A DNA stretch of 46,014 bases from Terriglobales bacterium (GTDB taxonomy: Bacteria; Acidobacteriota; Terriglobia; Terriglobales; Acidobacteriaceae), in the NCBI GenBank assembly GCA_035764005.1, contig DASTZZ010000067.1, positions 1 to 46,014 on the forward strand, given 5' to 3'. A program made the position numbers and the translations under genes. The notes below the pieces were generated by a model. The model saw only the letters and a program-made list of their open reading frames with translations, had not been told where the DNA came from and did no database searches. Shown here in pieces: positions 7,408 to 46,014 of this stretch (position 1 is the first letter of the stretch; every line of letters starts with the position of its first letter).

Positions 7408-7446
7408 CGATCTTAATCTGGCATTCAAATTATGGAGAAGCGACTA

Positions 7447-31561: not shown

Positions 31562-33778
31562 GTGAGCTCAAAAAACCTGCCTCGCCGAAACGCGCTGAAG
31601 TTGTTGGGCGGTGCAATTGCCGCAAGCTGCCTCGATTTGCCTACTCTGCTCCTCGCTCAAGAGCACATTCAGATCGCCGGCCGGGAAGCACGGATTTCCA
31701 TCTCGACAATCAGTCCCCACACTGCTCGTATTCAGATCGCTGAATCTGGCTCTGCTCCCGGAGCGCAGATCGATGATGGTGCAGTTCTCGAAGCCCAGCT
31801 GCGATCATCCACGCCCCGCAAGAGTGTGACAGGCCCTCGCGTCTCAATCCAACGTAATCCGCTAACGATTAAGGTGTCGGACACCGACGGCAAACCTGTA
31901 CAGGAATTGCGAGTTGACGAAGAGAGCGGCGCAGTAACTTTTCTGCTCGGCGATGGTCCTATTTTGGGAATGGGCGAGGGGGGTCCTCAGTTCGACCGTC
32001 GCGGGAATCTCGATCCCATGCGGAGCGGTCAGGGCGGATATCACCTTCGTACTTACGGCGGGCGCGTCCCCATCCAGTGGATGATCGGGACCTCGGGTTG
32101 GGCTATGTTCGTACACCAGCCGCTCGCCACCTTCGATCTCACCGATTCCGAAGGCAAGCTCACAGCGAATGATCCGAAAGCTGCGTTACCGATCGACACT
32201 TTCGTTGTTAGCGTAAAGGAACCGGCGCAGGCAATGGCGGAATACGCGCGCATTACGGGACATCCGGAGATGCCGCCGCTGTGGTCGCTCGGTTATCAGC
32301 AATCGCATCGCACCATCACCAGTCGCGACGAGATCCTTTCTATTGCGCGCACCTTCCGCGAAAAGAAGCTGCCGTGCGATGCGCTGATCTATCTCGGAAC
32401 CGGCTTCTGTCCATCAGGATGGAATACGGAAAACGGATCATTCCAATTCAATCGGCGGGCTTTTCCTGATCCCAAAGAGATACTCGACGAATTCCATCGT
32501 TTGAATTTTCGCGTGGTGCTGCACGCAGTGATCCTCACACGCACGCTGCGCGGGAGTGTCCATGACACTTGTAGCCTGCCGCGATTTGATGAAACGGAAG
32601 TGAGCTGCTACTGGGACGCGCATCGCAAAGATTTTGCTCTAGGCGTGGATGGGTGGTGGCCAGATGAAGGCGACCCTCTCGACGCAGCTTCGCGGCTCAC
32701 GCGCAATCGCATGTACTACGAAGGGCCGCAGCTTGATCATCCAAATCAGCGGCCTTACGCGCTGCACCGCAATGGCTATGCGGGAATGCAGCGCTACGCA
32801 CCTTTTCTTTGGTCGGGCGACGTGTACTCTACGTGGGAGACACTGCGTAACCATATTCCGATTAGTATCAATACGGGACTCTCGGGAATCCCATTTTGGG
32901 GCACCGACACCGGTGGTTTCGTTCCGACGAAAGAATTTAACGGCGAGCTTTTCGTTCGCTGGTTTCAGTTCAGCGCGTTCTGTCCGCTGTTCAGGGGACA
33001 TGGGCGCGATTGGAAGCTGCGTTTGCCATGGCAATGGAATACCGGAGAGCTTGGGCCAAATGAAATCAGTAACTACGGCGAAGCTGCGAATCCCGATCCC
33101 AGCGAGCTGCATAATCCCGATGTCGAGCCGATCTGCCGCAAGTATCTGGAGCTACGCTATCGACTGCTTCCCTATCTCTACACTGCCGTGCGCGAAAGTC
33201 ACGAAACTGGACTGCCGATCATCCGCGCGCTGTGGCTGCATTATCCGAACGATCCCAAGGCCGTCAATCGAGCGGACGAATATCTGTGGGGACGCGACAT
33301 TCTCGTCGCACCGGTAACGGAAAAAGGCGCAACCACAAAGACAGTTTATCTGCCAGAAGGCGATTGGTATGACTTCTGGACCGAAGAGAAGGTCACAGGC
33401 GGCCGGGAAGTAAATCGTCCGGTAGACTTGGCGACCATACCTCTATACGTTCGGGCAGGAGCGATTCTTCCGTTTGGCCCGATCAAGCAATTCACGAGCG
33501 AGAAGTCCGAGGAGCCGCTGGCGTTTGTCGTCTATCCCGGAGCGGGGTCTTCCGGCACGATCTACGAAGATGACGGCAACAGCTTCGATTACCATCGCGG
33601 CGAATGGATGAAGATTGGAGCGCGATGGGACGGACAACAAAAGCGGCTGTCAGTTCGCCTTCTTCCCGGCTCGCGTATGCTCCCGCCGTTGCGGCGGAAG
33701 ATGGAAGTCCGTCTGGTTCCCGAAAAGGGAACGCATGCATTCGATTTCAGCGGTCATCCGATCACGGTTTCGATCTAA
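31562..33778 (+). CDS. GH31 family glycoside hydrolase, Tat-type signal
   Basis: A 738-residue retaining alpha-glycosidase of family 31. A twin-arginine-like leader is at the N-terminus (NLPRRNALKLLGGAIAASCL). In the (beta/alpha)8 barrel, the likely nucleophile is Asp368 in GVDGWWPDEGDP and the likely acid/base Asp420 in FLWSGDVYSTWETL; GIPFWGTDTGGF and FCPLFRGHGRD line the active site. Family activities include alpha-glucosidase, alpha-xylosidase and alpha-galactosidase; I cannot choose between them. The start is GTG at 31562, with no clear ribosome binding site. It is convergent with the thioredoxin-like gene (8-base gap) and divergent from the Asp-box gene. Confidence 0.88.
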   Translation: MSSKNLPRRNALKLLGGAIAASCLDLPTLLLAQEHIQIAGREARISISTISPHTARIQIAESGSAPGAQIDDGAVLEAQLRSSTPRKSVTGPRVSIQRNPLTIKVSDTDGKPVQELRVDEESGAVTFLLGDGPILGMGEGGPQFDRRGNLDPMRSGQGGYHLRTYGGRVPIQWMIGTSGWAMFVHQPLATFDLTDSEGKLTANDPKAALPIDTFVVSVKEPAQAMAEYARITGHPEMPPLWSLGYQQSHRTITSRDEILSIARTFREKKLPCDALIYLGTGFCPSGWNTENGSFQFNRRAFPDPKEILDEFHRLNFRVVLHAVILTRTLRGSVHDTCSLPRFDETEVSCYWDAHRKDFALGVDGWWPDEGDPLDAASRLTRNRMYYEGPQLDHPNQRPYALHRNGYAGMQRYAPFLWSGDVYSTWETLRNHIPISINTGLSGIPFWGTDTGGFVPTKEFNGELFVRWFQFSAFCPLFRGHGRDWKLRLPWQWNTGELGPNEISNYGEAANPDPSELHNPDVEPICRKYLELRYRLLPYLYTAVRESHETGLPIIRALWLHYPNDPKAVNRADEYLWGRDILVAPVTEKGATTKTVYLPEGDWYDFWTEEKVTGGREVNRPVDLATIPLYVRAGAILPFGPIKQFTSEKSEEPLAFVVYPGAGSSGTIYEDDGNSFDYHRGEWMKIGARWDGQQKRLSVRLLPGSRMLPPLRRKMEVRLVPEKGTHAFDFSGHPITVSI

Positions 33779-33786
33779 TGAATGAT

Positions 33787-34845
33787 TTACTTAGCATCGA
33801 AGTTCTGCTGGCAATCGTTGCCGTAGGTAAACGAATGCAGCGTGAAGCCCTTTCCTTCAGGGGCAAGCGTCAGCAGATGCGATGCCAAAGCCGGATTCTT
33901 AATTACGTAGTACATTCTCGGCTCACTCACTTCGATATAAGAACCTTGCGCGTCGGTTTTCACGTCAGCCCCCGAGGCATAGCCCAAAGGCGTGCCATCC
34001 TGCGAGACATCAACTCGCACTGGTTTCTTGGGATCGTCCACACTCATGACGGCGTAAACCGAGCGCGCGTGATACCTGAGCATCGCTTTGTTGTCGTGCT
34101 TATCGGCAGAGGTAACGCCATCGTGATCGGTACGCCAACTGCCGTCGAGGATCACGCGCCCGTCGTCGGGCTCCTGGTTGGCTTTGAAGTGCACGACATA
34201 TCCGTCCTCGTACTTCTCGCGATTCTCGAGCGCTCCGCGGCCAAACCAGTCACCGACGTAAGTTTCTTCCGTCACTCGCCCGCACTGCGGCGCGAAAGTG
34301 TTCTCGTCAGGATCAAGCGGAATCTTTGCGACCTCGGGATGCTGCGGCAGCAGCAGTTCGCGAATCTTGACTTCCATCGGAGCGTTGTTGCCCTCGCCTT
34401 CGATGTGCATCACGATGTCGCCGCTGGGATCGATGAGATGCCGATTCGGCCACGATTCGGATTTGTAGGCTTTCCAGATGGAACCATTCACGTCGGCAAC
34501 GATCGGCCATGGCAATTGGAATCGCTGCGCAGCGCGGCGAACGTTTTCTGGCTTGTATCCCATCGCGAACTCGCCGAAATGCACACCGATGATCTCGAAA
34601 CCGTACGGATGGTATTTCGCGTACCAACGCTTCAGCACGGCAAAATCGCGGATGCAGTTAATACAGGTGTATTCCCAGAAGTCGATCAGCACCACGCGTC
34701 CGCGATATGCCTTGATCGAATGCGGCACCTTCGCGTCTTTATCGAGCCAAACTGCGTCGAACGAAAAATCAGGAGCTCGTTCTGTGTAGGCGCAAGCTGT
34801 TATCGAAAAAAGGAGCACAAACAAAAATGAGAGGAGTCGCTGCAT
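33787..34845 (-). CDS. TlpA/DipZ-like thioredoxin-fold exported protein
   Basis: A 352-residue envelope protein. The N-terminus is a signal sequence ending FSITAC (lipobox-like I-T-A-C18), so it may be a lipoprotein; cleavage after ACA is the alternative. A redoxin domain follows (about 25-175) with the Cys61-Ile-Asn-Cys64 active site in FWEYTCINCIRDFAVL. The C-terminal region of about 170 residues (TFAPQCGRVTEETYVGDWFG onwards) resembles the extra domain of DipZ-type proteins. I chose ATG 34845, preceded by GAGGAAAG; the frame is open to 34896 without support. It is transcribed divergently from the GH127 gene, whose LacI-type operator lies between them. GH127 depends on a zinc-bound cysteine cluster, so a thiol-redox partner is an attractive but untested idea. 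Confidence 0.8.
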   Translation of the reverse strand: MQRLLSFLFVLLFSITACAYTERAPDFSFDAVWLDKDAKVPHSIKAYRGRVVLIDFWEYTCINCIRDFAVLKRWYAKYHPYGFEIIGVHFGEFAMGYKPENVRRAAQRFQLPWPIVADVNGSIWKAYKSESWPNRHLIDPSGDIVMHIEGEGNNAPMEVKIRELLLPQHPEVAKIPLDPDENTFAPQCGRVTEETYVGDWFGRGALENREKYEDGYVVHFKANQEPDDGRVILDGSWRTDHDGVTSADKHDNKAMLRYHARSVYAVMSVDDPKKPVRVDVSQDGTPLGYASGADVKTDAQGSYIEVSEPRMYYVIKNPALASHLLTLAPEGKGFTLHSFTYGNDCQQNFDAK

Positions 34846-34924
34846 ACTTTCCTCGCAGACTTTCGTCGATTCTATGCAACCGCTTTCATTGCACAAATTG
34901 AAGACAACTAACGTTATTTTACGA

Positions 34925-34952
34925 TTGCGCAGTATCGCGAGATGCGTACAAT
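34925..34952 (+). promoter_or_regulatory. Promoter of the GH127 gene
   Basis: TTGCGC (34925-34930), a 16-base spacer and TACAAT (34947-34952), directly followed by the LacI-type operator at 34954. Spacing and -10 are identical to the promoters of the DUF5695-like and GH31 genes. Confidence 0.5.
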
Positions 34953-34953
34953 C

Positions 34954-34967
34954 TGTAAACGATTACA
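34954..34967. promoter_or_regulatory. LacI-family operator upstream of the GH127 gene
   Basis: TGTAAACGATTACA (flanked by C and G, giving 16 bp) is a LacI/GalR-type palindrome: arms TGTAA and TTACA with a central CG and only the A/A pair flanking that CG unmatched. It starts one base after the -10, over the expected transcription start, the classic place for repression. The LacI regulator at 28979-30010 is the obvious candidate to bind it. Confidence 0.7.
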
Positions 34968-35052
34968 GCGCAATCTACGAAGTTTTTGGAAGCTTGGCTT
35001 CCCACTTAATCGGCCTGCGGATCCCCGAACCCGCAGCACGGAGCAATTCGTA

Positions 35053-37038
35053 ATGACACTTACCAACGTTTCCCGTAGAAAGTTCATGGCCGGAGCTGCT
35101 GCCGTTGCCGGCGCGGCGGTTCTTCCTTCTTCAGCAAACAACCTGTTCGCGCAAGATCCCGTGGTCAATTCCATCGACAGCACGGGCAAACCGGTGAACC
35201 GGGAACGGGTGCCTTGGGCGGCAGTTCCCTTTCCCATGAAGCAGGTTCGTCTGCTCGAAGGAACTTGCTCCCGCGTGCAAGAGAAGAATCGCCAATATCT
35301 GCATTCACTACCGAATGACCGGCTGGCGTACTCGTTCAACATCACTGCCGGCCTCCCTTCGTCTGCTGAACCATTCGGCGGCTGGGAAAAACCAGATTCC
35401 GAGTTGCGCGGACACTTCAACGGCGGCCATTATCTCTCAGCCGTGGCTCTGATGTACGCGAGCACGGGCGATGAGGATCTCAAGAAGAAGGGCAACGCGC
35501 TCGTCTCTGATTTGCGCAAATGCCAGGTCGCTAACAAGAACGGATATCTCAGCGCATTTCCCGACGAGTTCTTCGACCGTCTGCGCGATCGCGTTCGCGT
35601 CTGGGCACCGTTCTACACCATCCACAAAATCATGGCCGGAATGCTCGACATGTATGTGCACACCGGCAACACCGAAGCGCTTCAAGTCGCCGAAGACATG
35701 GCCGGGTGGGTAGGAATGTGGACGGGTCCGCTCAGCTACGAGCACATGCAGCGCGTGCTTGGCACCGAGTACGGCGGCATGGGAGAGGTGCTCTGCAATC
35801 TTTATGCGGTTACGGGAAAGTATCAGTACCTCGGCGCTGCGCATCGTTTCGATAAGAAAGCCTTCTTCGAACCGCTGGAGAACCATCGCGACGAACTGAA
35901 GGGATTGCACGTGAACACGCACATCCCGCAAGTGATTGCAGCGGCTCGTTCATACGAACTCACGCACGATTCGAAGTATCACGACATCGCCCAGTATTTC
36001 TGGGATGAAGTCGTCAGCGAGCGCTCTTACTGCAACGGTGGGACCAGCAACGGCGAGGGCTGGCAAACCGATCCTGGCAAACTCTCGACTCAGCTTGGTC
36101 CGAGCACTACTGAAGATTGCTGCGCCTACAACATGCTGAAGCTCACGCGGCATCTGTTCGGCTGGTCGCCTGAGGCGCGCTATATGGATTACTACGAACG
36201 TGTCGTCTTCAATCACCGTCTTGGCACCATGGATCCTGAAACGGGAACCACGATGTATTACTACCCAATCGGCGTAGACCTCTGGAAGACGTATGCGACG
36301 CCAACCGACTCATTCTGGTGCTGCAACGGAACCGGAGTCGAGGAATTCGGGAAGCTCAACGACACGATCTACTTCCATGATGACAACTCAATCTACGTAA
36401 ATCTCTATGTACCGTCTGAAGTGAGTTGGCCAGAGAAAAAGCTGAAATTGCGGCAGGACACTGATTTTCCGCGGCAGCAAGGCACAAAGCTCACCATCAC
36501 GGCACAGCAGCCGACTGATGTTGCCATACGTTTACGCATCCCATATTGGGCCAATGGTGGAAGTGTGAAAATCAATGGGCGTCCTCTGCCGGTCTTTTCC
36601 AGCCAAAGCAGCTATCTGACGCTGCGTGGTCCGTGGAAGAACAATGACACTATCGAGCTCAGTCTCCCCATGGATATTCACGGTTCGCAGATGCCGGATG
36701 ACCACACGGTTCAGGCCCCGATGTACGGACCTCTGGTGCTCGCCGCGAAACACGAAGAAGCGCCTCGCGATCGTTGGTACGGCGATACCGGCCCATTCGA
36801 ACATCGCGAGCGCGGATCAGGCCCGCGTCCCATTCCGGAACTACCGGGAGCAAAGGGCAAGGTAGACGATCCAGCAAGTTGGATTCGCGCAGGAAACCAG
36901 CCGCTGACCTTCGAAGCTGCGGGAGAGTCTGGAGCGCAAGCCCTGGTGCCGATCAACGATATCGTGCACGAACGCTATGACGTGTACTGGAAGATAACTG
37001 CTACCGGGGGCGAGAGACCCCGTACATCGACAACGTAA
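35053..37038 (+). CDS. GH127 beta-L-arabinofuranosidase (DUF1680), Tat-exported
   Basis: A 661-residue enzyme with a twin-arginine signal (NVSRRKFMAGAAAVAGAAVL). The (alpha/alpha)6 barrel carries the family's zinc-cysteine site: Glu354 and Cys356 in EDCCAYNMLKL, and Cys423 and Cys424 in FWCCNGTGVEEFGKL. These match the pattern of Bifidobacterium HypBA1, where one cysteine is the nucleophile. A C-terminal beta-sandwich follows. Characterised GH127 members cleave beta-L-arabinofuranosides, including those on hydroxyproline. ATG 35053 has GGAG 9 bases upstream; an earlier in-frame ATG at 34942 is rejected because it overlaps the promoter and operator. Tat export suits a protein that must fold around zinc in the cytoplasm. 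The neighbouring hydroxyproline operon supports a role on hydroxyproline-rich glycoproteins. Confidence 0.88.
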   Translation: MTLTNVSRRKFMAGAAAVAGAAVLPSSANNLFAQDPVVNSIDSTGKPVNRERVPWAAVPFPMKQVRLLEGTCSRVQEKNRQYLHSLPNDRLAYSFNITAGLPSSAEPFGGWEKPDSELRGHFNGGHYLSAVALMYASTGDEDLKKKGNALVSDLRKCQVANKNGYLSAFPDEFFDRLRDRVRVWAPFYTIHKIMAGMLDMYVHTGNTEALQVAEDMAGWVGMWTGPLSYEHMQRVLGTEYGGMGEVLCNLYAVTGKYQYLGAAHRFDKKAFFEPLENHRDELKGLHVNTHIPQVIAAARSYELTHDSKYHDIAQYFWDEVVSERSYCNGGTSNGEGWQTDPGKLSTQLGPSTTEDCCAYNMLKLTRHLFGWSPEARYMDYYERVVFNHRLGTMDPETGTTMYYYPIGVDLWKTYATPTDSFWCCNGTGVEEFGKLNDTIYFHDDNSIYVNLYVPSEVSWPEKKLKLRQDTDFPRQQGTKLTITAQQPTDVAIRLRIPYWANGGSVKINGRPLPVFSSQSSYLTLRGPWKNNDTIELSLPMDIHGSQMPDDHTVQAPMYGPLVLAAKHEEAPRDRWYGDTGPFEHRERGSGPRPIPELPGAKGKVDDPASWIRAGNQPLTFEAAGESGAQALVPINDIVHERYDVYWKITATGGERPRTSTT

Positions 37039-37051
37039 TTGAACTACTGAA

Positions 37052-37129
37052 GTCAGTACCGTTCCCGGTAGGGAATGGGTCAGAGATAAAGGCTCCTCTA
37101 CACCATTCGTTGCCGCGAACGCTACTGAC
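37052..37129. repeat. REP-like inverted pair between convergent genes
   Basis: GTCAGTACCGTTCCCGGTAG and following bases (37052-37080) face an inverted diverged copy (37102-37129; ACCATTCGTTGCCGCGAACG at its start). They are the same family as 7289-7407. The pair can form a large hairpin between the convergent GH127 and VPS10-like genes and could terminate both. Confidence 0.8.
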
Positions 37130-37164
37130 GAGGCGAGTCCAGGCTCTTCTATCTCGGCGTCGTC

Positions 37165-40100
37165 CTAATCATTCCCAGCCGGAGTTGTGCTGGTCGCTTT
37201 GCTTGGAGCCGAAACCCCAAGAGGCACTGCCCCATGTTCAAGAAGCGCCCTATTGAATGCCGGAAGGTGCTGCTCCATTAAATCCTTGTACTCTGTTTGA
37301 ACGCCGGTGAGTTCCTGCTCGATTTCGTTGAGCAGGCCGATGCTGGTGTCAGTTGGTGCGAAGTCCTCGCCACCGGCCACGTCGCCGGCTCCCACACCTA
37401 CCTCTCCATCAAGCCACAGCAGGTTGTAGTAGATCTTGTACGCCTCGACGTAGTACTTATCGTCGCTCGTGGTAAGTGCTTTGGAGACGAGCTTGTACTC
37501 GACATTCTGCATGCGGTGATCCATGTCTTGGACCGATTTCACCATATCTTGATTCTTACTTTCGGCATACATCCGTTCCAAATCCCCCAACTGCTTGCGC
37601 GACCATTCAAGGTTGTTAATCATGTCGGCAGTCTTGGTCACGTCGTCGCGAATGCGCAACTGCAGCTTAACCGAGCGCTGGATGTCTTCATCCGATGTTG
37701 TGATCTTCGGATCGCGTAGCACTTCGAGCGGCTGAGTGAATGATTCGCCATCAACTGTCAATTTGACTGTGTACTTTCCTGGAGCGACGAGTGGGCCCGC
37801 GGGGTTCGTTTCCATACCCCAGTGTGTGATCGGCCGCCAATCGTGTCCACGAAAGCGCGGTTCTTCCCAGATGTGTGGATTCTCCGGTGGCGTGGTGCGC
37901 AGCCGCACCGCAGTCGGACCTTCGTAGTGCAGATCCCAAAAGCTGCGATTCAGCCCAGCGTGTGCCGGAGGCTCCAGCGAGCGCACTACCTCGCCGGAAG
38001 AATCAACGATCTCGATTTGCACACGGCCTTTCGGTGCAGCCTTCAGCTCGAAATCAATGAGCGCTCGCGGATTACGCGAGAACCTGTAAGCAGCTCGATT
38101 GGCGAAGAGTCTAACCGCAGCATCGTTGGAGTTTCCGGCCTTCTGCTCGAGAGAACTAATGTCATCAAGGATGTAGAGGCCTCGACCATAGGTTGAGACC
38201 ACCAGATCATGAAATCTTTTTTGAACGATAATCCAGGAAACCGTTGCGTGCGGCAGTCCTGCCTGTAGATTCGTCCAGTGCTCACCATCGTCCGATGAAT
38301 AATAGAGCGCATTGCCGGTTCCGGCGAAGAGCAGTCCTTTCTTGTTGGGATCCTCGGCGACTGTGCGCACGTACGAAAGCGGGCCTTTCGGGATTCCTCC
38401 CGAAATGAGAGTCCAAGACTTGCCGAAGTTCGTAGTCTTGTAAATAAATGGATCGCGATTGTCCATCAAGTGATAGTCAACCGCGACATAAGCCGTGCCC
38501 GGGTCGAAAAAGGAAGGTTGAATGCTGGTGACGGTTCCCCACGCTGGCATCGGCATGCTGCTCGTGACGTCGTTCCAGTGGCTGCCATCCCGCGTGTACC
38601 AGACTTTGCCGTCATTGGTTCCCGCCCAGATCAGGTTCTTTTCTACGGTTGAAGGAGCAATTGCGAAAACGACTTCTCCGTAAAACTGACCGAGATTGTC
38701 GCCAACAATGCCGCCCGAAGATACGATGCGGCTAGGATCCTGAGTTGAGAGGTCAGGGCTGATCACGCTCCAACTTTGTCCTGCGTTGGTGGTCTTGAAA
38801 ATCACCTGGCAGCCGTAATAGACAGTGTTGTGATCGAAGGGATCAATCGCCAAAGGCGGAGTCCAGTGACAGCGGTACTTGCTCTCGTTCGGCGCTGAAT
38901 CCAGAGTATGCCGCCACGGACTTACCGAACGCGCTTCCTTGATACGCGCATCGTAACGCGTAACTTCATCTCCGTAACAGGATGCCCATACGATGTTCGT
39001 ATCGGTTGGATCAGGGATGGTGAACCCAGACTCGCAGCCGCCAAGACGGTGCTCCCAACCAACATCGCCGTTGAATCCAAATCCCGAGGACGTGCTCGGG
39101 CCGCGCATCGTGCCATCGTCCTGCATGTTGCTGTAAACGTAATAGGGGACCTGGTCATCCACGGCGACGTGATACATCTGTCCTATCGGCAGAGTTACTC
39201 GCTGGAACCCGCGTCCGTGTACCTGAGTGATGATCAGGCCGGCGTCGTTGGTAATCACAAAACGATCGGCATTTTGGGGATCGATCCAGATGTCGTGATT
39301 GTCGCCGCCCCAAGGGACCGTCTCAAAAGTTTCGCCTCCATCGAGCGAGCGATGAAAGCTGCTGTTGGAAATCAGCACCTCATTCTCGTCGCTGGGTGAA
39401 ACCGCAATGCGGATGTAATAGCCGGCACGGCCGATTAATGATCGGTCCCAATTTGAAACTCGCCAGCTCCGACCAGCATCGTCTGAGCGCCAAACCGATC
39501 CTTGGTCAGCAGTTTGAATCAGCGCATACACGCGGTTGGAGTCGGTCGGCGCGACCGCAACATCGATTTTCCCCACCGGGGAATGCGGTAGTCCGTGGCC
39601 TTCGATTTTCTCCCACTTACTGCCGCCATCACGGGAAACATAGATGCCGCTGCCCGGTCCGCCGCTGAATTCGCCATACGTATGCATCACCACTTGCCAT
39701 GTGCCCGCGAAGAGAACTCGTGGGTTTTGCGGATCCATCGACAGCCCTGAGCACCCCGTGTTCTCGTCAACAAAGAGCACACGATCCCAATGTTCTCCGC
39801 CATCCGTCGTTCGATACACGCCGCGCTCCTGCTGTGGCCCGGTCAGTCGGCCTTCGGCGCAGACGAAGACGGTGTTCGCATCGGAAGGATTGATGATGAT
39901 GCGAGCAATGCGCCCAGTCTGATCGAGTCCCATGTGTTTCCACGATTTTCCCGCATCGACAGACTTGTACACCCCATCGCCGCCGACATCACTATCGCGA
40001 ATCGCCCAAGGCTCGCCCGTTCCGGCCCACACAGTAGATTTGTCGGAACGCGCGACAGCAAGCGCTCCGATTGCAGCTACAGGCTCGTCTTCAAAGATGG

Positions 40101-40356
40101 GTTCCCAACGATTGCCGCCATCAATTGACTTCCAAATTCCGCCGGATGCCGCTCCGGCATAGTACGTACTTGGATCTCCAGCAATACCCGTAATGGCAGC
40201 AATGCGATTACCCACAACGGGACCAATGAATCGAAAGCGAAAGCCTGCTTCGCCGCCGCCGCCGCGTCGACGTTGGGCGGCCATAGTGGCTGCGAGCAAA
40301 GTGATGACGAGAACGACAAACAGCATTTTCAGGAAGGACTTCGACATCGTCACCAT
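37165..40356 (-). CDS. Exported VPS10/sortilin-like Asp-box repeat protein
   Basis: A 1063-residue secreted protein (signal peptide MLFVVLVITLLAATMAAQ, then a Gly/Arg-rich linker). About ten sialidase/Ycf48/VPS10-type repeats follow, for example GGIWKSIDGGNRWEP, GVYKSVDAGKSWKH, GVYRTTDGGEHWDR, GIYVSRDGGSKWEK, VFKTTNAGQSWSV and YYSSDDGEHWTNL. The C-terminal 300 residues hold an Ig-like domain (RVQIEIVDSSGEVVRSLEPP) and a helical region. Such proteins are numerous in Acidobacteria and lack a proven reaction; often they are labelled 'glycosyl hydrolase'. It begins 39 bases after the aldehyde dehydrogenase gene on the same strand, so it may be the last gene of the hydroxyproline operon. AAGGAAG precedes the ATG. 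A nearby in-frame ATG at 40347 is possible. Confidence 0.82.
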   Translation of the reverse strand: MVTMSKSFLKMLFVVLVITLLAATMAAQRRRGGGGEAGFRFRFIGPVVGNRIAAITGIAGDPSTYYAGAASGGIWKSIDGGNRWEPIFEDEPVAAIGALAVARSDKSTVWAGTGEPWAIRDSDVGGDGVYKSVDAGKSWKHMGLDQTGRIARIIINPSDANTVFVCAEGRLTGPQQERGVYRTTDGGEHWDRVLFVDENTGCSGLSMDPQNPRVLFAGTWQVVMHTYGEFSGGPGSGIYVSRDGGSKWEKIEGHGLPHSPVGKIDVAVAPTDSNRVYALIQTADQGSVWRSDDAGRSWRVSNWDRSLIGRAGYYIRIAVSPSDENEVLISNSSFHRSLDGGETFETVPWGGDNHDIWIDPQNADRFVITNDAGLIITQVHGRGFQRVTLPIGQMYHVAVDDQVPYYVYSNMQDDGTMRGPSTSSGFGFNGDVGWEHRLGGCESGFTIPDPTDTNIVWASCYGDEVTRYDARIKEARSVSPWRHTLDSAPNESKYRCHWTPPLAIDPFDHNTVYYGCQVIFKTTNAGQSWSVISPDLSTQDPSRIVSSGGIVGDNLGQFYGEVVFAIAPSTVEKNLIWAGTNDGKVWYTRDGSHWNDVTSSMPMPAWGTVTSIQPSFFDPGTAYVAVDYHLMDNRDPFIYKTTNFGKSWTLISGGIPKGPLSYVRTVAEDPNKKGLLFAGTGNALYYSSDDGEHWTNLQAGLPHATVSWIIVQKRFHDLVVSTYGRGLYILDDISSLEQKAGNSNDAAVRLFANRAAYRFSRNPRALIDFELKAAPKGRVQIEIVDSSGEVVRSLEPPAHAGLNRSFWDLHYEGPTAVRLRTTPPENPHIWEEPRFRGHDWRPITHWGMETNPAGPLVAPGKYTVKLTVDGESFTQPLEVLRDPKITTSDEDIQRSVKLQLRIRDDVTKTADMINNLEWSRKQLGDLERMYAESKNQDMVKSVQDMDHRMQNVEYKLVSKALTTSDDKYYVEAYKIYYNLLWLDGEVGVGAGDVAGGEDFAPTDTSIGLLNEIEQELTGVQTEYKDLMEQHLPAFNRALLEHGAVPLGVSAPSKATSTTPAGND

Positions 40357-40395
40357 ATGATTCCACTTCCTTTCAATACGATGAGTAGCGCCGGA

Positions 40396-41979
40396 TTATG
40401 AACTGAGAGTCTCGCGCGAGAGTGCCCCGTTGACAGTTCGCCAAATTCCGAGCGGATTCCCATTCTGCAACTCCTGAGGAAGTGCTGCATCGGGAAAATT
40501 CTGGAAGCATACCGGTCTCGCGAAGCGCAAAATTGCCAGGGTGCCGACCGACGTAAACCGCGAGTCGGAGGTGGAAGGATATGGTCCGCCATGCACCATT
40601 GCATGACTCACCTCCACACCGGTCGGATATCCGTTGAAAACGAGGCGGCCGACTTTGTGCTCGAGAATTTCGACCAGGTCGGCGTAGTCGCGCAAGTCCT
40701 GCTCGGTGCCGTGAATCGTTGCGGTTAGATGTCCTTCGAGTCCTTCGGCAAAGCGGAGCAACTTCTCACGCCGCTGATATCGCACGATCAGTGTGGACGG
40801 TCCGAAGAGTTCGTCGGCAAGATCATGCTCCGACAACACGTCATCCATCTCGGCTTCGAATAGAGTCGTGGCAGCGCGGAATCCAGCATCTTTCGGTCGG
40901 GATGATGAGATCTGACGTAATTTCGTCCGTTGCGCCAATCCCTGTTCGTACGATTTGCATATACCCGCGGTGAGCAGAACGTGGTCAGAAGCTGCGCTGG
41001 TAAGTTCTCTCAGCTTGGCGGATAGCCGCTCTGATCCTTGATTTGGGCCGAGAAGAACCAAGCCTGGCTTCGTGCAAAACTGCCCGGCTCCGAGGGTGAA
41101 AGAGCCGTATAGTCCAGTCGCAATCTGCTCTGCTCTTTCAGCTGCGGCGTGTGGCAGCACGAACACAGGATTGGTGCTGCTCATCTCAGCGAAGAAAGGG
41201 ATGGGATCAGGTCGAGCCGCAGCCAGGTTCATCAGCGCACGACCACCGGTGCGGGAGCCAGTAAACCCTCCCGCTTTGATCGCAGGATGCTGGACCAGCT
41301 TGCTTCCCACCTCGGTACCGGAATCGAACAGCAGCGAAAAAGTTCCTTCGGGAGCGCCACCAGCATGACAAGCTTCGATGATTGCTCGACCCACCATCTC
41401 GCTTGCTCCAGGATGGGCGGGATGGGCCTTGGCCACGACTGGATTTCCAGCAGCGAGAGCAGATGCTGTATCACCTCCCGCAACCGAAAACGCCAGCGGA
41501 AAATTGCTCGCGCCGAAGACTGCCACAGGTCCAATGGGACGCAGCATGGAGCGAATGTCCGCTTTCGGCAGAGGCTTCCGATTTGGATCTGCCAGGTCGA
41601 TTCGCGCATTTACCCAAGAGCCTTCCTCGACGACTGAAGCAAAGAGACGAAGTTGATTGCAGGTGCGAGCAAGTTCTCCTTTAAGGCGATCCTGACCTAA
41701 TGCAGTCTCAAGAGCTGTGCGATCGATGAGTTCCTGTCCAAGAGCTTCGATCGCACTGGCGACCTGCTTCAGCAGACTTGCCTTCTGCTTCCCTGTCCAT
41801 CGGCGATAGCTTCGAAAGGCTGACTTGGCGAGTCTTGCTGCTCGGTCGACATCCGCGGCATCGGTTCGGTGGAAATCAGGAGGAACGGTTTGGCCGGTCA
41901 GAGGATTCATCGCCCGAAAGGGAGTCCCATTTCGGGAGGCAGCTTCAAAGCCGATGAGCGATTCTCCGCGAAGGTCCAT
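40396..41979 (-). CDS. 2-oxoglutarate semialdehyde (2,5-dioxovalerate) dehydrogenase
   Basis: A 527-residue NAD(P)-dependent aldehyde dehydrogenase with catalytic Glu265 (FFAEMSSTNP) and Cys302 (GAGQFCTKPG), and FGASNFPLAFSVAGGD in the cofactor-binding part. These variant motifs are typical of the 2-oxoglutarate semialdehyde dehydrogenase group of about 520 residues. In hydroxyproline, L-arabinose and glucarate degradation, it makes 2-oxoglutarate. Its place 11 bases after the DapA-like deaminase gene fits the last step of 4-hydroxyproline breakdown. The ribosome binding site is weak (GAGA). It could also serve oxidation of L-arabinose released by GH127, if the rest of that route exists elsewhere. 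Confidence 0.9.
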   Translation of the reverse strand: MDLRGESLIGFEAASRNGTPFRAMNPLTGQTVPPDFHRTDAADVDRAARLAKSAFRSYRRWTGKQKASLLKQVASAIEALGQELIDRTALETALGQDRLKGELARTCNQLRLFASVVEEGSWVNARIDLADPNRKPLPKADIRSMLRPIGPVAVFGASNFPLAFSVAGGDTASALAAGNPVVAKAHPAHPGASEMVGRAIIEACHAGGAPEGTFSLLFDSGTEVGSKLVQHPAIKAGGFTGSRTGGRALMNLAAARPDPIPFFAEMSSTNPVFVLPHAAAERAEQIATGLYGSFTLGAGQFCTKPGLVLLGPNQGSERLSAKLRELTSAASDHVLLTAGICKSYEQGLAQRTKLRQISSSRPKDAGFRAATTLFEAEMDDVLSEHDLADELFGPSTLIVRYQRREKLLRFAEGLEGHLTATIHGTEQDLRDYADLVEILEHKVGRLVFNGYPTGVEVSHAMVHGGPYPSTSDSRFTSVGTLAILRFARPVCFQNFPDAALPQELQNGNPLGIWRTVNGALSRETLSS

Positions 41980-41990
41980 GTTGTCTCTTC

Positions 41991-42920
41991 TCAGCGCTGC
42001 AGCGCTGCAGCGGCGCTCGATCCTGCGGTGACTTTGGGTCGATTGGCGAGCGCCTGCTTCACAATTGCGCGGGTCTCCTCCAACTCCTTTCCGACTAGCT
42101 GAAGGCGCGGCGGACGCACTCGACTGTTTCCCATGCCGACGATCTCTTGCACCAGCTTGATGAGCTGAACAAATTTGGGAACTGTATCCATGCGCAGCAG
42201 CGGCAGGAACCAGTAATAGAGTTCGAGCGCTTTTTCGCGATCGCCTTTCGTCGCGTACTCGAAAAGATCCACCGACTCACGTGGAAGTGCATTTACTAAC
42301 CCCGCGATCCAGCCGACGGCGCCTACACCAAGTGCCTCTACGATCGCGTCATCAACTCCGACAAAGACTTGCATTCCGCCATTCAGCAAGGCCCGAATGG
42401 CACTCACGCGACGAACATCGGCGCTGGATTCTTTTACAGCATGCAGATTCGAATGCTCGGCAGCAAGCTGAGCAATCTGCTCAGGTAAGAAATCCGTGCC
42501 GTAGGCAATCGGATTGTTGTAGAGCATCGTCGAGAGCGGAGTTGCCCGCAGGACCGCGGAGATATGCGCCATCATCTCGCGCGCATCACCTTGATATACA
42601 TATGGCGGCAACACCATTAATGCGTCGCATCCCAGGTCGGCTGCCCCTTTTGCCAATGCAACCGATTCCGCCGTGCTGAGGGAAGAGATCGACGCAACGA
42701 CCGGAGCGCGCCCGCGAACTGCGTTGATGCACGTGCGCACAACCGCGAGCTTCTCATCGAAACTCAAGGTGGCACCCTCGCCGAGAGAACCTAAGGCGAC
42801 AATTCCCGTGCAGCCGTTGTCGATCAGCCAGCGGCAGTGCTCAGCCAAAAAGCCATGATCAACCCGCAGAGATTCATCAAAGCAGGTGGTGATTGCCGGC
42901 ATCACGCCGCGCCATTTCAT
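41991..42920 (-). CDS. DapA-family lyase, probable 1-pyrroline-4-hydroxy-2-carboxylate deaminase
   Basis: A 309-residue TIM-barrel enzyme of the dihydrodipicolinate synthase/N-acetylneuraminate lyase family. The Schiff-base lysine is Lys163 in LHAVKESSADVRR, with Tyr134 in TMLYNNP and the GSLGEG loop at 44-49. In hydroxyproline operons this family member deaminates pyrroline-4-hydroxy-2-carboxylate to 2-oxoglutarate semialdehyde, and its position between the D-hydroxyproline dehydrogenase genes and the aldehyde dehydrogenase gene argues for exactly that. AAGGAG 9 bases upstream supports the ATG. By sequence alone other aldol or dehydratase activities cannot be excluded. Confidence 0.85.
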   Translation of the reverse strand: MKWRGVMPAITTCFDESLRVDHGFLAEHCRWLIDNGCTGIVALGSLGEGATLSFDEKLAVVRTCINAVRGRAPVVASISSLSTAESVALAKGAADLGCDALMVLPPYVYQGDAREMMAHISAVLRATPLSTMLYNNPIAYGTDFLPEQIAQLAAEHSNLHAVKESSADVRRVSAIRALLNGGMQVFVGVDDAIVEALGVGAVGWIAGLVNALPRESVDLFEYATKGDREKALELYYWFLPLLRMDTVPKFVQLIKLVQEIVGMGNSRVRPPRLQLVGKELEETRAIVKQALANRPKVTAGSSAAAALQR

Positions 42921-42932
42921 TGTGTTCGCTCC

Positions 42933-44210
42933 TTAAACCCTGACTTCAGGCCCACTCTCTTCAGTTGCCATAAGGCTCTCGACTCGCGCCTCGATTATCG
43001 GTGGACGCACCGATTCGGCACTCCAGCCAAATAGAAATTCTGTCGCAGCGCCGCAGATGCGGCCTTGACACGGCCCCATGCCGCAACGCGTATACAACTT
43101 TGCTTCGCGCCAACTTCGACATCGCGCCAGCCGGTCGAAGCGCACATCCTCACAGCGACATATGAACGTGTCTTCGCGCGCGAGCTTCTTCAGTTCTTCG
43201 CGCAACTCAAATGCATTCTCCACCGCATTCGCGAATTCACGATGACGTGTTCGTGCTCGGAAAAGCCTCCGGGCCTTTTGCGGCTGTCCTGCGGCCACGG
43301 ATCCTGCAATCTGGCCTTCGACAATGGCGAGATCAACGCCGCCGATTCCTGTCGGCTCTCCAGCGCAGTAGACGTTTGCGATGGAGGTCTGCTGCAGTTC
43401 GTTCACCGGTACAGCTCCAGCGTTGATCTCGCAGCCCAGCAAGCTGGCGAGTTCCAGATTAGGTACCAGATGAAAACCGCACGCAAGATAGTCACATTCG
43501 ATCTCGAACTTTTTTGCTCCCTGCTGGAGAACAACGCTGCGCAGACAATCGTCACCCTTCGCTTCTACCGCCCAACAGCCAAATCGAAACGGAATGCCGG
43601 CCAAACTGCCGAATATTCCAAGCGCCTGCGCCAGTTTTCGTGGATATCGCCACAGAGTACTTCCGAAGGCGACGACGGATTTGCCTGGAGCCTGCTCGGC
43701 AATCAGTTCTACTTTCGCGCCATGGCGCTTCAGATACACAGCAACGGGCAAAAGCAACGGCCCTGTACCGGCGACAATGACGTGCTTGTCCCGAATTGGA
43801 ACCCCTGCTTTTGCCAACGCCTGCAGGCCGCCTGCTCCCATCACGTTTGGCAGCGTCCACCCCGGAAAGGGCAGGAACCGTTCGCGCGCACCGGTGCAGA
43901 GGATCAGGCGTGCGTAGTTGATCTCCCGCATCCCGTCGGCGCTCTCGGCAACCAGAACTCCTGGACGCACCTGGTCAAAAATGCGAAAACCGCGCAAGAT
44001 CTCGACACTCAAGCTCTTTAAGCGCTGATTCCATTTGCGTGCCGCACGGACCGATGGATTCGCTTCTTCTCCTCGCCAGATCTGTCCACCCAGTGCGGGG
44101 TTGTCGTCGAGGAGCAGAACACTCGCGCCGCACTCGGCAGCGCTCACAGCTGCGGCGATGCCCGCCGGTCCTCCGCCGGCAACGACAATGTCCCAACTCT
44201 GCCTATTCAT
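42933..44210 (-). CDS. D-hydroxyproline dehydrogenase, FAD/NAD(P)-type subunit (HcnB-like)
   Basis: A 425-residue flavoprotein. An N-terminal FAD-binding Rossmann fold (VAGGGPAGIAAAVSAAECGA), a second dinucleotide-binding motif (HVIVAGTGPLLLPVAVYLKR) and a GIGGVDLAIVEGQIAG flavin motif are visible. The C-terminus has a BFD-like [2Fe-2S] domain: CRCEDV and RCGMGPCQGRICG supply four cysteines. This matches the large subunit of HcnABC-type cyanide synthases and the three-subunit D-hydroxyproline or opine dehydrogenases. Its start overlaps the ferredoxin-like gene by 8 bases, and all three subunits are encoded together, consistent with a membrane-associated complex feeding electrons to the respiratory chain. 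Confidence 0.86.
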   Translation of the reverse strand: MNRQSWDIVVAGGGPAGIAAAVSAAECGASVLLLDDNPALGGQIWRGEEANPSVRAARKWNQRLKSLSVEILRGFRIFDQVRPGVLVAESADGMREINYARLILCTGARERFLPFPGWTLPNVMGAGGLQALAKAGVPIRDKHVIVAGTGPLLLPVAVYLKRHGAKVELIAEQAPGKSVVAFGSTLWRYPRKLAQALGIFGSLAGIPFRFGCWAVEAKGDDCLRSVVLQQGAKKFEIECDYLACGFHLVPNLELASLLGCEINAGAVPVNELQQTSIANVYCAGEPTGIGGVDLAIVEGQIAGSVAAGQPQKARRLFRARTRHREFANAVENAFELREELKKLAREDTFICRCEDVRFDRLARCRSWREAKLYTRCGMGPCQGRICGAATEFLFGWSAESVRPPIIEARVESLMATEESGPEVRV

Positions 44211-44451
44211 CGGTGTTTATCTGCATTCCGTGCCTACATAGCATCTGGCAGCTCTTGACGTGGCGCACGCCGTCAACTGTCACTCGACATTCGAAGCACA
44301 CTCCCATGCCGCATAGCGGGCCGCGCGGCTCTCCTGAAACCGAGCGGCGGAAACTCGAATTCCCTGCAATGAAGACAGCCGCTGCAACTGTCGTTCCGGC
44401 AGGCACCGTCAACTCTCTCCCATTAAGGGAAATCGCGAAAGCATCAGGCAT
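44203..44451 (-). CDS. D-hydroxyproline dehydrogenase, [2Fe-2S] small subunit (HcnA-like)
   Basis: An 82-residue ferredoxin-like protein. Cysteines Cys47, Cys52, Cys55 and Cys68 (CGMGVCFECRVTVDGVRHVK around them) fit the plant-type [2Fe-2S] pattern of Fer2_4 domains. ATG 44451 lies inside the end of the preceding gene (8-base overlap), and the stop overlaps the start of the next by 8 bases, so translation is tightly coupled. The frame is open up to 44589, but that would lie inside the upstream gene. It should carry electrons between the two flavin subunits. Confidence 0.85.
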   Translation of the reverse strand: MPDAFAISLNGRELTVPAGTTVAAAVFIAGNSSFRRSVSGEPRGPLCGMGVCFECRVTVDGVRHVKSCQMLCRHGMQINTDE

Positions 44452-45568
44452 ACACGTGCTCCCGCGAGTGGCGCGACGGCAGGTATGGCTCAAAGGGAAT
44501 CGCCGGCTTGCGTCCGAGAATCTGATCGACCAGCAGCTTTGCGGTTCCGAGCGAAGTGGTAATTCCGAGTCCTTCGTGGCCAGTCGCAAACCACATGTTC
44601 GGCTTTTTTACGGATGGACCAATCAGCGGCAACTTGTCGGGAGTAGCCGCGCGAAACCCGGTCCAGCAGCGCACGACCGCTTTTTGTGCCAAATCGGGCA
44701 TGTACTCGCAGGCACGCGCCAGCATTGCGCGAATCATCTGGCGATCGATCGCGGTGTCCTCGGCGCCATACTGGCGCGAGGAACCGATCAGGATCTGTCC
44801 GGTTGCGCGTGGCTGCACGTTGAAAGCAACAGAGTCGGCCGTGACTGAGTGCGCGCTTTTCAGATAGCCGAGTTCCACAAGCTGATGGCGAACATAGCCA
44901 GGGTAGCGATCAGTGATAGCCAGATGTCCCTTGCGCTTCTTAATTTCGAGACTCGCATCGAGTTCCGGCGCCCAGGCGCCGGTCGCAACCACCGTGATTC
45001 CCGGATTGAAACTGCTGCCGTCGCGCAGACTGAATCCGACTTCGCTCACTGCGCTCACTCTTCCCTGAATCACAGTGGCTCCGCAACTTTGCGCTAGCGA
45101 CCACAACCAGCGCGCGGCAGTAGGTGGATAGAGCACTCCGTCTTCGGGAACGAGCAGTCCGCCGGCCAAGCCTTTGCGCAGATTAGGCTCAGCCTCCGCG
45201 AGAGCTCGAGCATCCAGGATTTCGCAGGGCACACGACGTGCGCTGTAGTAAGCCTGTTTGCGACGAACTTCGATCATCTCTTCTTCATCTGCAGCCACCC
45301 AGATGGTTCCAGTGGTTTCAAACTCAACATCTTCAGGAAGCTCGTCCTTGAGATGCAGCCACAACTGCTGCGAGTAGCGAGTCAGAGCAAACTGCGCGTC
45401 GGAGTCATCCATGGCGACGATGTGTCCCATGCCTGCGGCCGTTGCGCCTCCGCCGACAATTCCTTCCTCTATGATCGCCGTCTTCAGTCCCGCCCGCGCG
45501 CACTCCAGCGCACACGCTGCGCCGACGATGCCAGCGCCGACGATCACGACATCGAAATTCTGCGACAT
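44444..45568 (-). CDS. D-hydroxyproline dehydrogenase, D-amino-acid-oxidase-type subunit (HcnC-like)
   Basis: A 374-residue FAD-dependent oxidoreductase of the DAO family. The FAD fold is VVIVGAGIVGAACALECARA, and the C-terminal flavin motif is MWFATGHEGLGITTSLGTAK; RCWTGFRAATPDKLPLIGPS is typical of this group. It is the catalytic subunit that oxidises cis-4-hydroxy-D-proline to the pyrroline. ATG 45568 shares one base with the stop of the epimerase gene (TGATG), showing coupling. The frame is open to 45622 without support. Confidence 0.87.
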   Translation of the reverse strand: MSQNFDVVIVGAGIVGAACALECARAGLKTAIIEEGIVGGGATAAGMGHIVAMDDSDAQFALTRYSQQLWLHLKDELPEDVEFETTGTIWVAADEEEMIEVRRKQAYYSARRVPCEILDARALAEAEPNLRKGLAGGLLVPEDGVLYPPTAARWLWSLAQSCGATVIQGRVSAVSEVGFSLRDGSSFNPGITVVATGAWAPELDASLEIKKRKGHLAITDRYPGYVRHQLVELGYLKSAHSVTADSVAFNVQPRATGQILIGSSRQYGAEDTAIDRQMIRAMLARACEYMPDLAQKAVVRCWTGFRAATPDKLPLIGPSVKKPNMWFATGHEGLGITTSLGTAKLLVDQILGRKPAIPFEPYLPSRHSREHVYA

Positions 45569-46014
45569 CAATGACTCGCAACCATCTCGTGAGCGGTTCC
45601 CGGTGCGGGAATGCCGTAGCAAAAAGGATCGCGCTCATCGAGCACCAAATATCCTTCGCCATTCACGAATGCCGATCCGGTGATGCTCGGAATCACTTCA
45701 CCGTTCTGCACCGTGATTGAAGCCTCAAACAAACTGCCGATGATGCTTTCCTGTCTCCACTTCTGTCCCGGCTGAAGTTTGCCCTCGGCATAAAGACACG
45801 CAACCTTAGCGCTCGTTCCCGTCCCACAAGGGGAACGATCGTAGGCTTTTCCCGGACACAGAACGAAGTTCTTGCTGTCCGCGTCGGTACGATCAGCCGA
45901 CTCGAAAACCTCTACATGATCGATCTCCGCTCCATCTCTGCCGGTAATTCCATTCGCGGTGAGAGTCTGTCGAACAGCCCAGGTAAAGTCGATAAGCTGT
46001 TCGAGGTTATTCAT
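45568..46014 (-). CDS. 4-hydroxyproline 2-epimerase (proline racemase family), C-terminal part
   Basis: The last 148 codons of a proline racemase-family gene; the usual length is about 310-340 residues, so the first half lies beyond the right edge, and the ATG at 46014 is most likely an internal methionine. The second catalytic cysteine is visible in DRSPCGTGTSAKVACLY (Cys63 of the visible part); the first cysteine is outside. In this operon the enzyme should convert trans-4-hydroxy-L-proline to cis-4-hydroxy-D-proline, the first step. Distinction from proline racemase or the trans-3-hydroxyproline dehydratase rests on the neighbouring genes. Confidence 0.85.
   Translation of the reverse strand: MNNLEQLIDFTWAVRQTLTANGITGRDGAEIDHVEVFESADRTDADSKNFVLCPGKAYDRSPCGTGTSAKVACLYAEGKLQPGQKWRQESIIGSLFEASITVQNGEVIPSITGSAFVNGEGYLVLDERDPFCYGIPAPGTAHEMVASH

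Follow-up and report, generated by a model that had tools for sequence, protein, structure and literature searches.

The DNA analyzed here is a 46,014-nucleotide stretch from a Terriglobales bacterium of the Acidobacteriota, hereafter called the window, which is contig C67 of a 131-contig, 5.1-Mb host genome. Near its right end, a gene for a GH146-type, predicted β-L-arabinofuranosidase lies beside an operon for the catabolism of 4-hydroxyproline (Hyp). With a probability of roughly 0.75 the window is part of a locus for the utilization of hydroxyproline-rich glycoproteins (HRGPs), where the substrate, the export of the enzymes and their co-expression in the host are what we infer. An initial annotation of the window had proposed a locus joining arabinose removal with Hyp catabolism, and this proposal is supported by the recurring linkage of the two gene sets and by the genes that accompany them. 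The genes of immediate concern are the following.

35053..37038, + strand: GH146-type, predicted β-L-arabinofuranosidase, 661 aa, Tat-like start (PF07944, 368 bits)
40396..41979, - strand: aldehyde dehydrogenase (ALDH), probable 2-oxoglutarate semialdehyde dehydrogenase (PF00171, 155 bits; 37% identity to the Xanthomonas-type operon protein, see below)
41991..42920, - strand: DapA-family protein, probable pyrroline-4-hydroxy-2-carboxylate deaminase (PF00701, 197 bits; 60% identity to the Xanthomonas-type operon protein)
42933..44210, - strand: D-hydroxyproline dehydrogenase, pyridine-nucleotide-oxidoreductase-like subunit (PF07992, 91 bits; 44% identity to the Xanthomonas-type operon protein)
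44203..44451, - strand: D-hydroxyproline dehydrogenase, small 2Fe-2S subunit, start picked from sequence (PF13510, 81 bits, scored on the longer open reading frame (ORF) 44206-44589)
44444..45568, - strand: D-hydroxyproline dehydrogenase, DAO-type FAD subunit (PF01266, 238 bits, scored on a longer ORF; 51% identity to the Xanthomonas-type operon protein)
45568..46014, - strand: 4-hydroxyproline epimerase, 3' part (PF05544, 128 bits; best NCBIfam match 4-hydroxyproline epimerase; remainder on contig C82)

The enzyme encoded at 35053-37038 begins with a twin-arginine (Tat-like) start, MTLTNVSRRKFMAG, the motif being judged by eye. It contains the Glu-x-Cys and Cys-Cys signatures as E354, C356, C423 and C424 (numbered from the ATG at 35053), in columns that are invariant across a 14-sequence alignment, and these residues presumably form the metal site that serves Zn binding and catalysis. 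The protein had been described as a Tat-exported GH127 with these signatures; the motifs and the Tat-like start hold, but the family name does not. PF07944 spans both GH127 and GH146, and among solved structures the enzyme matches 5OPJ at 329 bits and 8K7X/8K7Y at 206-207 bits, with the other listed superfamily structures at 46-74 bits and HypBA1 (3WKW) at 46 bits. A Pfam scan of the enzyme did not find PF20737, the GH127 C-terminal domain, which is present in the host's second PF07944 paralogue on contig C65 (23% identity over 347 columns). The low score to HypBA1 and this distribution of PF20737 rule out GH127 sensu stricto. Judged by its sequence the enzyme is GH146-type, and β-L-arabinofuranosidase activity is predicted. 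We take 5OPJ to be BT0349 (the deposited molecule names differ) and 8K7X/8K7Y, whose molecule names read Bifidobacterium β-L-arabinofuranosidase, to be Bll3HypBA1. The assignment of these entries to GH146 follows PMC10850190, which names BT0349 and Bll3HypBA1 as GH146 structures and gives the Glu-x-Cys and Cys-Cys residues of GH146 a Zn-binding and catalytic role. XeHypBA1 and Bll4HypBA1, both GH146 members, act on β-linked L-arabinofuranose (Araf) of Hyp, Araf-β1-Hyp (PMC10850190), so the GH146 assignment favors an HRGP substrate.

Bacteria degrade trans-4-hydroxy-L-proline by means of an epimerase, a D-Hyp dehydrogenase, a deaminase and a 2-oxoglutarate semialdehyde (KGSA) dehydrogenase. The first four genes of the host operon overlap, through TGATG at 45570-45566 and then two 8-bp overlaps, and the deaminase and ALDH genes follow after gaps of 12 and 11 bp, which confirms the coupled operon with a three-subunit dehydrogenase that had been annotated. 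The DAO, Fer2_4 and Pyr_redox genes with their overlapping ends have the three-subunit composition that we take to be that of D-Hyp dehydrogenase. A subunit beta of this enzyme with a DAO domain has been described (PMC6608401). The probable deaminase scores 175 bits with the DapA equivalog model, short of its cut-off of 206. As to the annotated 2-oxoglutarate semialdehyde dehydrogenase, an ALDH-family gene is indeed in the operon, but it reaches only 105 of the 770 bits of the curated cut-off, and its specific name, which is probable, rests on operon context. A further role of this ALDH in arabinose utilization, also suggested earlier, is not supported; the host has an L-arabinose isomerase, so the isomerase route for arabinose is available. 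Contrary to the initial annotation, the pathway is not complete within the window, which holds only the 3' 148 codons of the epimerase with the Cys motif SPCGTG; the 5' part, with the second Cys motif MCGHG, is on C82. Two full-length epimerase relatives score 419-429 bits, slightly below the cut-offs of 442-450, and that of a Xanthomonas-type genome (G361) scores 447 bits, above its cut-off of 442. The glycosidase gene lies 3.36 kb from the end of the ALDH gene (40396), in agreement with the 3.4 kb given previously, with one gene, VPS10/sortilin-like, in between.

The window and C82 overlap exactly over 141 bp at their ends, and an exact overlap of the same length connects the beginning of C82 with the terminus of a further contig, C100. 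A single assembler graph would leave exact overlaps of equal length; short of a finished assembly, there is strong reason to regard the window, C82 and C100 as adjoining in the genome. C82 carries an amino-acid permease gene divergent from the epimerase gene, a GH27 α-galactosidase, a TonB-type receptor, TPR and FG-GAP/UnbV proteins, a partial match to DUF5695 and the latter portion of a protein from a family here called X788. On C100 are the first part of X788, an amidase, a DPP-IV-family peptidase and a 718-aa protein without a Pfam match (L291:9456-11612) that lies between the amidase and X788.

Across the order, PF05544 matches above the cut-off occur in 90 of 249 genomes and PF07944 matches in 187 of 249. 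Seventy genomes have both an over-cut-off epimerase-family match and a listed PF07944 match (listed down to ~214 bits), and in 27 of these a GH127/146 gene and an epimerase-family gene lie within 25 kb on the same contig, against ~1.0 expected for uniform placement in 5.2 Mb of the listed matches only. The 27 genomes span 15 genera, within which genomes are not independent, and include the host, a genome with a partial epimerase-family match (G172, 44 bits) and one with a partial glycosidase (G027). In 12 genomes hand-picked for long contigs, GH127/146 is found within 25 kb of the epimerase gene in seven (0.46 expected, P 6e-8), DPPIV_N, counted only for matches above 90 bits, likewise in seven (0.25 expected, P 1e-9), and a GH3 control with 111 matches in one (0.98 expected). 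This set omits G102 and G132, in which the gene is on a contig longer than 1.4 Mb and unlinked among the listed matches; with both added the glycosidase linkage becomes 7 of 14, the fuller figure. The linkage between GH127/146 and epimerase genes exceeds chance.

Gene content was compared between 92 stretches centered on an epimerase-family gene and 20 random controls, drawn from 20 of the genomes that supplied the 92. The comparison is partly circular, because the 20 genomes whose linked loci, together with the window, gave the family profiles also contribute to the 92 stretches; the Pfam-based count in the 12 long-contig genomes is the cleaner test. The DPP-IV family occurs in 18 epimerase stretches vs 0 random ones, the permease in 17 vs 0, GH146 in 13 vs 0, F5/8-type GH127 in 4 vs 0, DUF5695 in 8 vs 0, GH27 in 8 vs 1, two clusters of DUF885 in 7 and 7 vs 0, GH43 in 6 vs 0 and the TonB-type receptor in 25 vs 4. 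Several stretches may come from one genome (three from G025, two each from G001, G011 and G207), and some are cut by contig ends. Seventy-two stretches have epimerase, DAO and deaminase genes together; at least one glycan or peptidase gene is present in 36 of these and both kinds in eight, compared with one such gene-bearing stretch among the 20 controls. A permease accompanies 16 of the 72 and a GntR regulator 33; profile searches of the host contigs examined (C67, C82 and parts of C100 and C65) found no GntR gene.

The linkage extends beyond the phylum. When GTDB contigs were scanned with a GH146 alignment, at least 591 pattern matches and at least 588 relatives were obtained, of which the best 80 loci were analyzed. 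Each of the seven Rhodanobacteraceae stretches (Dyella, Rhodanobacter) has a DUF885 gene and genes of the Hyp pathway, in L215 only that for the ALDH, and five of the seven additionally have a permease or GH27. Whole-genome searches found a full-length epimerase in 7 of 7 of these genomes, at coordinates that fit a distance of ~9-14 kb from GH146, the same contig being verified for L246, G250 and G252 and deduced from coordinates for the others. Of 200 Xanthomonadales genomes, 44 had a PF07944 match, and these were then searched for PF05544. In 15 of 19 genomes picked by eye (glycosidase ≥300 bits, epimerase family ≥290 bits) both genes are on one contig within 40 kb, at distances of up to 19 kb in 8 and of 30-40 kb in 7; G250 and G252 are counted both here and among the seven Rhodanobacteraceae. 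In the four unlinked genomes (G268, G279, G296, G441) the glycosidase is of the BT0349 group and a different contig carries a higher-scoring epimerase-family protein, so that nearness is not strictly excluded. Conservation beyond this genome, which the initial annotation had set as one of the tests of its proposal, is thus seen in 15 genera of the order, in 7 of 7 Dyella and Rhodanobacter genomes and in 15 of 19 Xanthomonadales.

In G361 a run on one strand comprises, in order, genes for the epimerase, DAO, a 2Fe-2S-sized protein (78 aa), oxidoreductase, deaminase and ALDH, followed by an M24/prolidase-type peptidase, two DUF885 proteins, a permease, DPP-IV and X788, and ending with GH121, GH43, DUF6055, GH146 and a TonB plug protein. 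One small ORF is interspersed, and an AraC-type PAS regulator is divergent from the run. The GH121 protein, whose ORF call probably starts too early, matches HypBA2 (6M5A) with 713 bits over residues 774-1593; the locus proteins then compared yielded weak matches to it only (≤91 bits), with GH43 proteins among the best. We infer that G361-like genomes are Xanthomonas-type, because in G435 the GH146, from the same clade, is 791 residues long like XCV2724, and the epimerase matches 4JUU, presumably from Xanthomonas campestris, with 668 bits. The DUF6055 protein (L288:13414-15240), encoded in the G361 run between the GH43 and GH146 genes, may belong to the Svx/AvrXca peptidases, which are predicted extensin cutters (PMC9266454).

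In a FastTree of 122 GH146 rows, the Xanthomonas-type clade (support 86, and 100 for an inner group of 12 rows) is linked in 14 of 14 rows, its five acidobacterial rows having been taken from linked loci and its nine Xanthomonadales rows not so chosen. In the BT0349 group none of five rows is linked. Across the tree, the label 'not linked' includes many short stretches.

The X788 family, ~780 aa in length, is represented in the host in two parts, at L155:67-1488 (C82) and L291:11691-12641 (C100). No Pfam, NCBIfam or PDB match was obtained for the members scanned. Within the order, 22 of 249 genomes encode X788 at E 1e-30, and 21 of the 22 have the epimerase family, compared with 90 of 249 overall (Fisher P 1.5e-9). 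A model of the protein, with a mean predicted local distance difference test (pLDDT) score of 62, resembles (α/α)-barrel glycosidases and phosphorylases, HypBA1 included, with low template modeling (TM) scores. The model is consistent with a helical-barrel, glycosidase-like fold, and nothing finer is taken from it.

In the proposed mechanism, exported glycosidases (GH146; GH27, encoded on C82; in relatives also GH43 and GH121) would strip β-arabinosides from Hyp and α-galactose from Ser, proline-specific peptidases (the DPP-IV family; prolidase-like and DUF885 enzymes in relatives) would cut the bared proline/Hyp-rich chain, and the amino-acid permease would import the products. The epimerase would then convert L-Hyp to D-Hyp, the three-subunit dehydrogenase would form the pyrroline, the DapA-like deaminase would yield 2-oxoglutarate semialdehyde and the ALDH 2-oxoglutarate, in the order of reactions of the bacterial pathway. 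The co-located peptidases, permease, α-galactosidase, GH43 and GH121 are what the dismantling of extensin would need. Extensins carry Ser-linked α-galactose (PMC9266454), so GH27 would suit them. On balance we lean toward the view that soil Acidobacteriota and Xanthomonadales share a conserved glycoprotein locus whose prize is Hyp itself, sugar removal and proline-specific cleavage serving to open the modified backbone as a source of carbon and nitrogen, with X788 a new enzyme family of the pathway. If true, this would explain the retention of HypBA1, HypBA2 and HypAA in Xanthomonas unable to use arabinose.

Several observations weigh against the HRGP reading. GH121 and GH43 were not seen in the host contigs named above, the whole genome not having been searched, and 3 of 3 other genomes searched from the genus of the host lack an epimerase match. 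In 36 of the 72 stretches that combine epimerase, DAO and deaminase, no glycan or peptidase gene among those scored is in reach, so the Hyp operon seems to occur alone too. Under the rule applied to GH146 loci (an epimerase-family gene, or DAO plus deaminase), Hyp genes are present in 10 of the best 80 loci, many of these stretches being short; the count becomes 17 of 80 on adding L200 and six Rhodanobacteraceae stretches that end before the epimerase. Two of the ten are Gemmatimonadota, and this group was rejected as a third phylum, the L220 neighbor being closest to trans-3-Hyp dehydratase (360 bits, cut-off 550). The proline-racemase-family genes that adjoin GH146 there (L220:4928-5965 and a like gene at L210:7443-8480, only L220 having been scanned) possibly serve a route for a different Hyp isomer; both loci are kept among the ten and among the 52 'hyp' rows of the tree. 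The window enzyme itself is outside the Xanthomonas-type clade, in a second large clade of mostly ~650-aa proteins in which 37 of 100 rows are linked, and its nearest row (L178, 78% identity) is labeled unlinked. We know of no characterized member of this clade. BT0349, at 329 bits the best solved relative of the window enzyme, acts on arabinan-derived oligosaccharides (PMC10850190).

The remaining features of the window include a DUF5695 gene that may bear on the nature of the glycan.

26170..28962, + strand: DUF5695 protein, predicted distant relative of the PL27 rhamnose-glucuronate lyase (PF18951, 1321 bits)
28979..30010, - strand: LacI-type regulator (PF00356, PF13377)
30078..31472, - strand: BNR-repeat protein (PF13088; in 3 of 80 GH146 loci)
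31562..33778, + strand: GH31 protein (PF01055, 211 bits)
33787..34845, - strand: thioredoxin/TlpA-like protein, probably unrelated (PF17991, PF00578)
37165..40356, - strand: VPS10/sortilin-like BNR protein, 39 bp past the ALDH gene (PF15902, 95 bits)

The VPS10/sortilin-like gene directly follows the Hyp operon in the window, and its family is present in 12 of 92 epimerase stretches vs 0 of 20 random ones; the GH31 family is in 4 of 92 (0 of 20 random) and in 8 of 80 GH146 loci. The left part of the window contains a GH38 protein (7432-11064) and an IS110-family transposase (11417-12520).

DUF5695 recurs in 13 of the best 80 GH146 loci in addition to the 8 of 92 epimerase stretches. The window protein matches the Bacteroides PL27 L-rhamnose-α-1,4-D-glucuronate lyase BACCELL_00875 (5NO8) by profile (E 4.4e-18) and by Foldseek (E 5.2e-22; model mean pLDDT 61), a distant likeness of sequence and fold at a low identity of ~15%. 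An identification as GH121 was rejected, a single-sequence search giving no PDB match and the profile search PL27. By sequence profile and model, DUF5695 is a putative distant PL27 relative, a predicted function for a Pfam family without a name. PL27 enzymes free rhamnose from gum arabic, an arabinogalactan protein (AGP) (PMC8377490). The true target could accordingly be AGP or a mixture of HRGPs, with GH146 removing β-1,3-Araf caps, DUF5695 removing rhamnose caps, and Hyp derived from the AGP core. The match of DUF5695 to an AGP lyase and the action of a Bifidobacterium GH146 on AGP (PMC10850190) speak for this alternative, but GH121, GH43 and GH146 in G361 correspond to the extensin trio of PMC6085000 and GH27 would fit the Ser-α-galactose of extensins (PMC9266454), so that we judge it rather unlikely.

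That the Hyp operon serves free Hyp, collagen or general proline-rich peptides, with GH146 as a passenger, is improbable. A Hyp regulon has been described with no mention of glycosidases (PMC6608401) and, as noted above, half of the 72 stretches lack the scored genes, but the linkage in 27 of 70 genomes vs ~1, the 12-genome result (GH127/146 in seven, DPP-IV in seven, GH3 in one) and the GH121/GH43/GH146 set in G361 argue against a passenger. It is also quite improbable that plant-litter genes merely accumulate in islands, with GH146 directed at pectic arabinan and Hyp catabolism separate. Acidobacterial genomes are rich in glycosidases, as the 111 GH3 matches in 12 genomes indicate, and BT0349 acts on arabinan-derived sugars (PMC10850190). 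GH3 is, however, unlinked whereas GH127/146 and DPP-IV are linked, none of the five tree rows in the BT0349 group is linked, and the linkage recurs in Xanthomonadales; a generic glycosidase island was rejected on the negative GH3 control. Chance adjacency in the host genome alone, with which the three epimerase-free genomes of its genus would agree, is dismissed by the 27 of 70 linked genomes vs ~1 expected.

Together with other hydroxyproline-rich proteins, extensins make up a fraction of the plant wall that is resistant and contains nitrogen. The locus of the window and its relatives suggests that in some soil and plant-associated bacteria the genes that strip the sugar, cut the proline-rich peptide and burn Hyp form a dedicated feeding route. 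If one conserved locus takes sugar, peptide and modified amino acid, it would serve as a genetic marker of HRGP turnover in soil, and X788 and DUF5695 are two uncharacterized families that now have a predicted substrate. A literature search, outside of which most subscription papers fall, found no paper linking 4-hydroxyproline epimerase or Hyp catabolism with extensin, none joining hydroxyproline, Xanthomonas, epimerase and arabinofuranosidase, and none joining hydroxyproline, polysaccharide utilization locus and extensin. An earlier proposal has Latescibacteria using extensins via GH127, and Hyp catabolism is not mentioned in the available part of that account (PMC4454575).

The host operon contains the same enzyme kinds as known trans-4-Hyp catabolic operons, such as the HypR regulon of Streptomyces coelicolor, and HypR is a GntR/FadR-type regulator of the sort present in 33 of the 72 loci. 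The available text on the S. coelicolor regulon mentions no glycosidases (PMC6608401), whereas the host operon is part of a locus for glycans and peptides. On the glycan side, the proposed locus is like the HypBA1/HypBA2/HypAA system (GH127, GH121, GH43) of Bifidobacterium longum in that β-arabino-oligosaccharides are removed from Hyp, and the Bifidobacterium GH146 Bll4HypBA1 acts on arabinose linked to Hyp of the HRGP backbone (PMC10850190). It differs in that the window enzyme is not GH127 and in that the B. longum system is described as arabinose foraging, with neither Hyp catabolism nor prolyl peptidases named in the accessible excerpt (PMC10850190). In Xanthomonas euvesicatoria, XeHypBA1, XeHypBA2 and XeHypAA (XCV2724, 2729, 2728), a GH146 (there called GH127), a GH121 and a GH43, act on Hyp-arabinosides, and a prolyl oligopeptidase gene, a pseudogene in that account, adjoins XCV2724-2729 (PMC6085000). 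X. euvesicatoria cannot use L-arabinose, and why the enzymes are kept was asked in 2018 (PMC6085000); the word 'epimerase' does not occur in that paper, which leaves their role unexplained, and the Hyp part is added here from Xanthomonas-type genomes. The G361 run joins the Hyp operon with GH121, GH43 and GH146, and Hyp as food, which would resolve the question, is a candidate answer that the locus would make directly testable.

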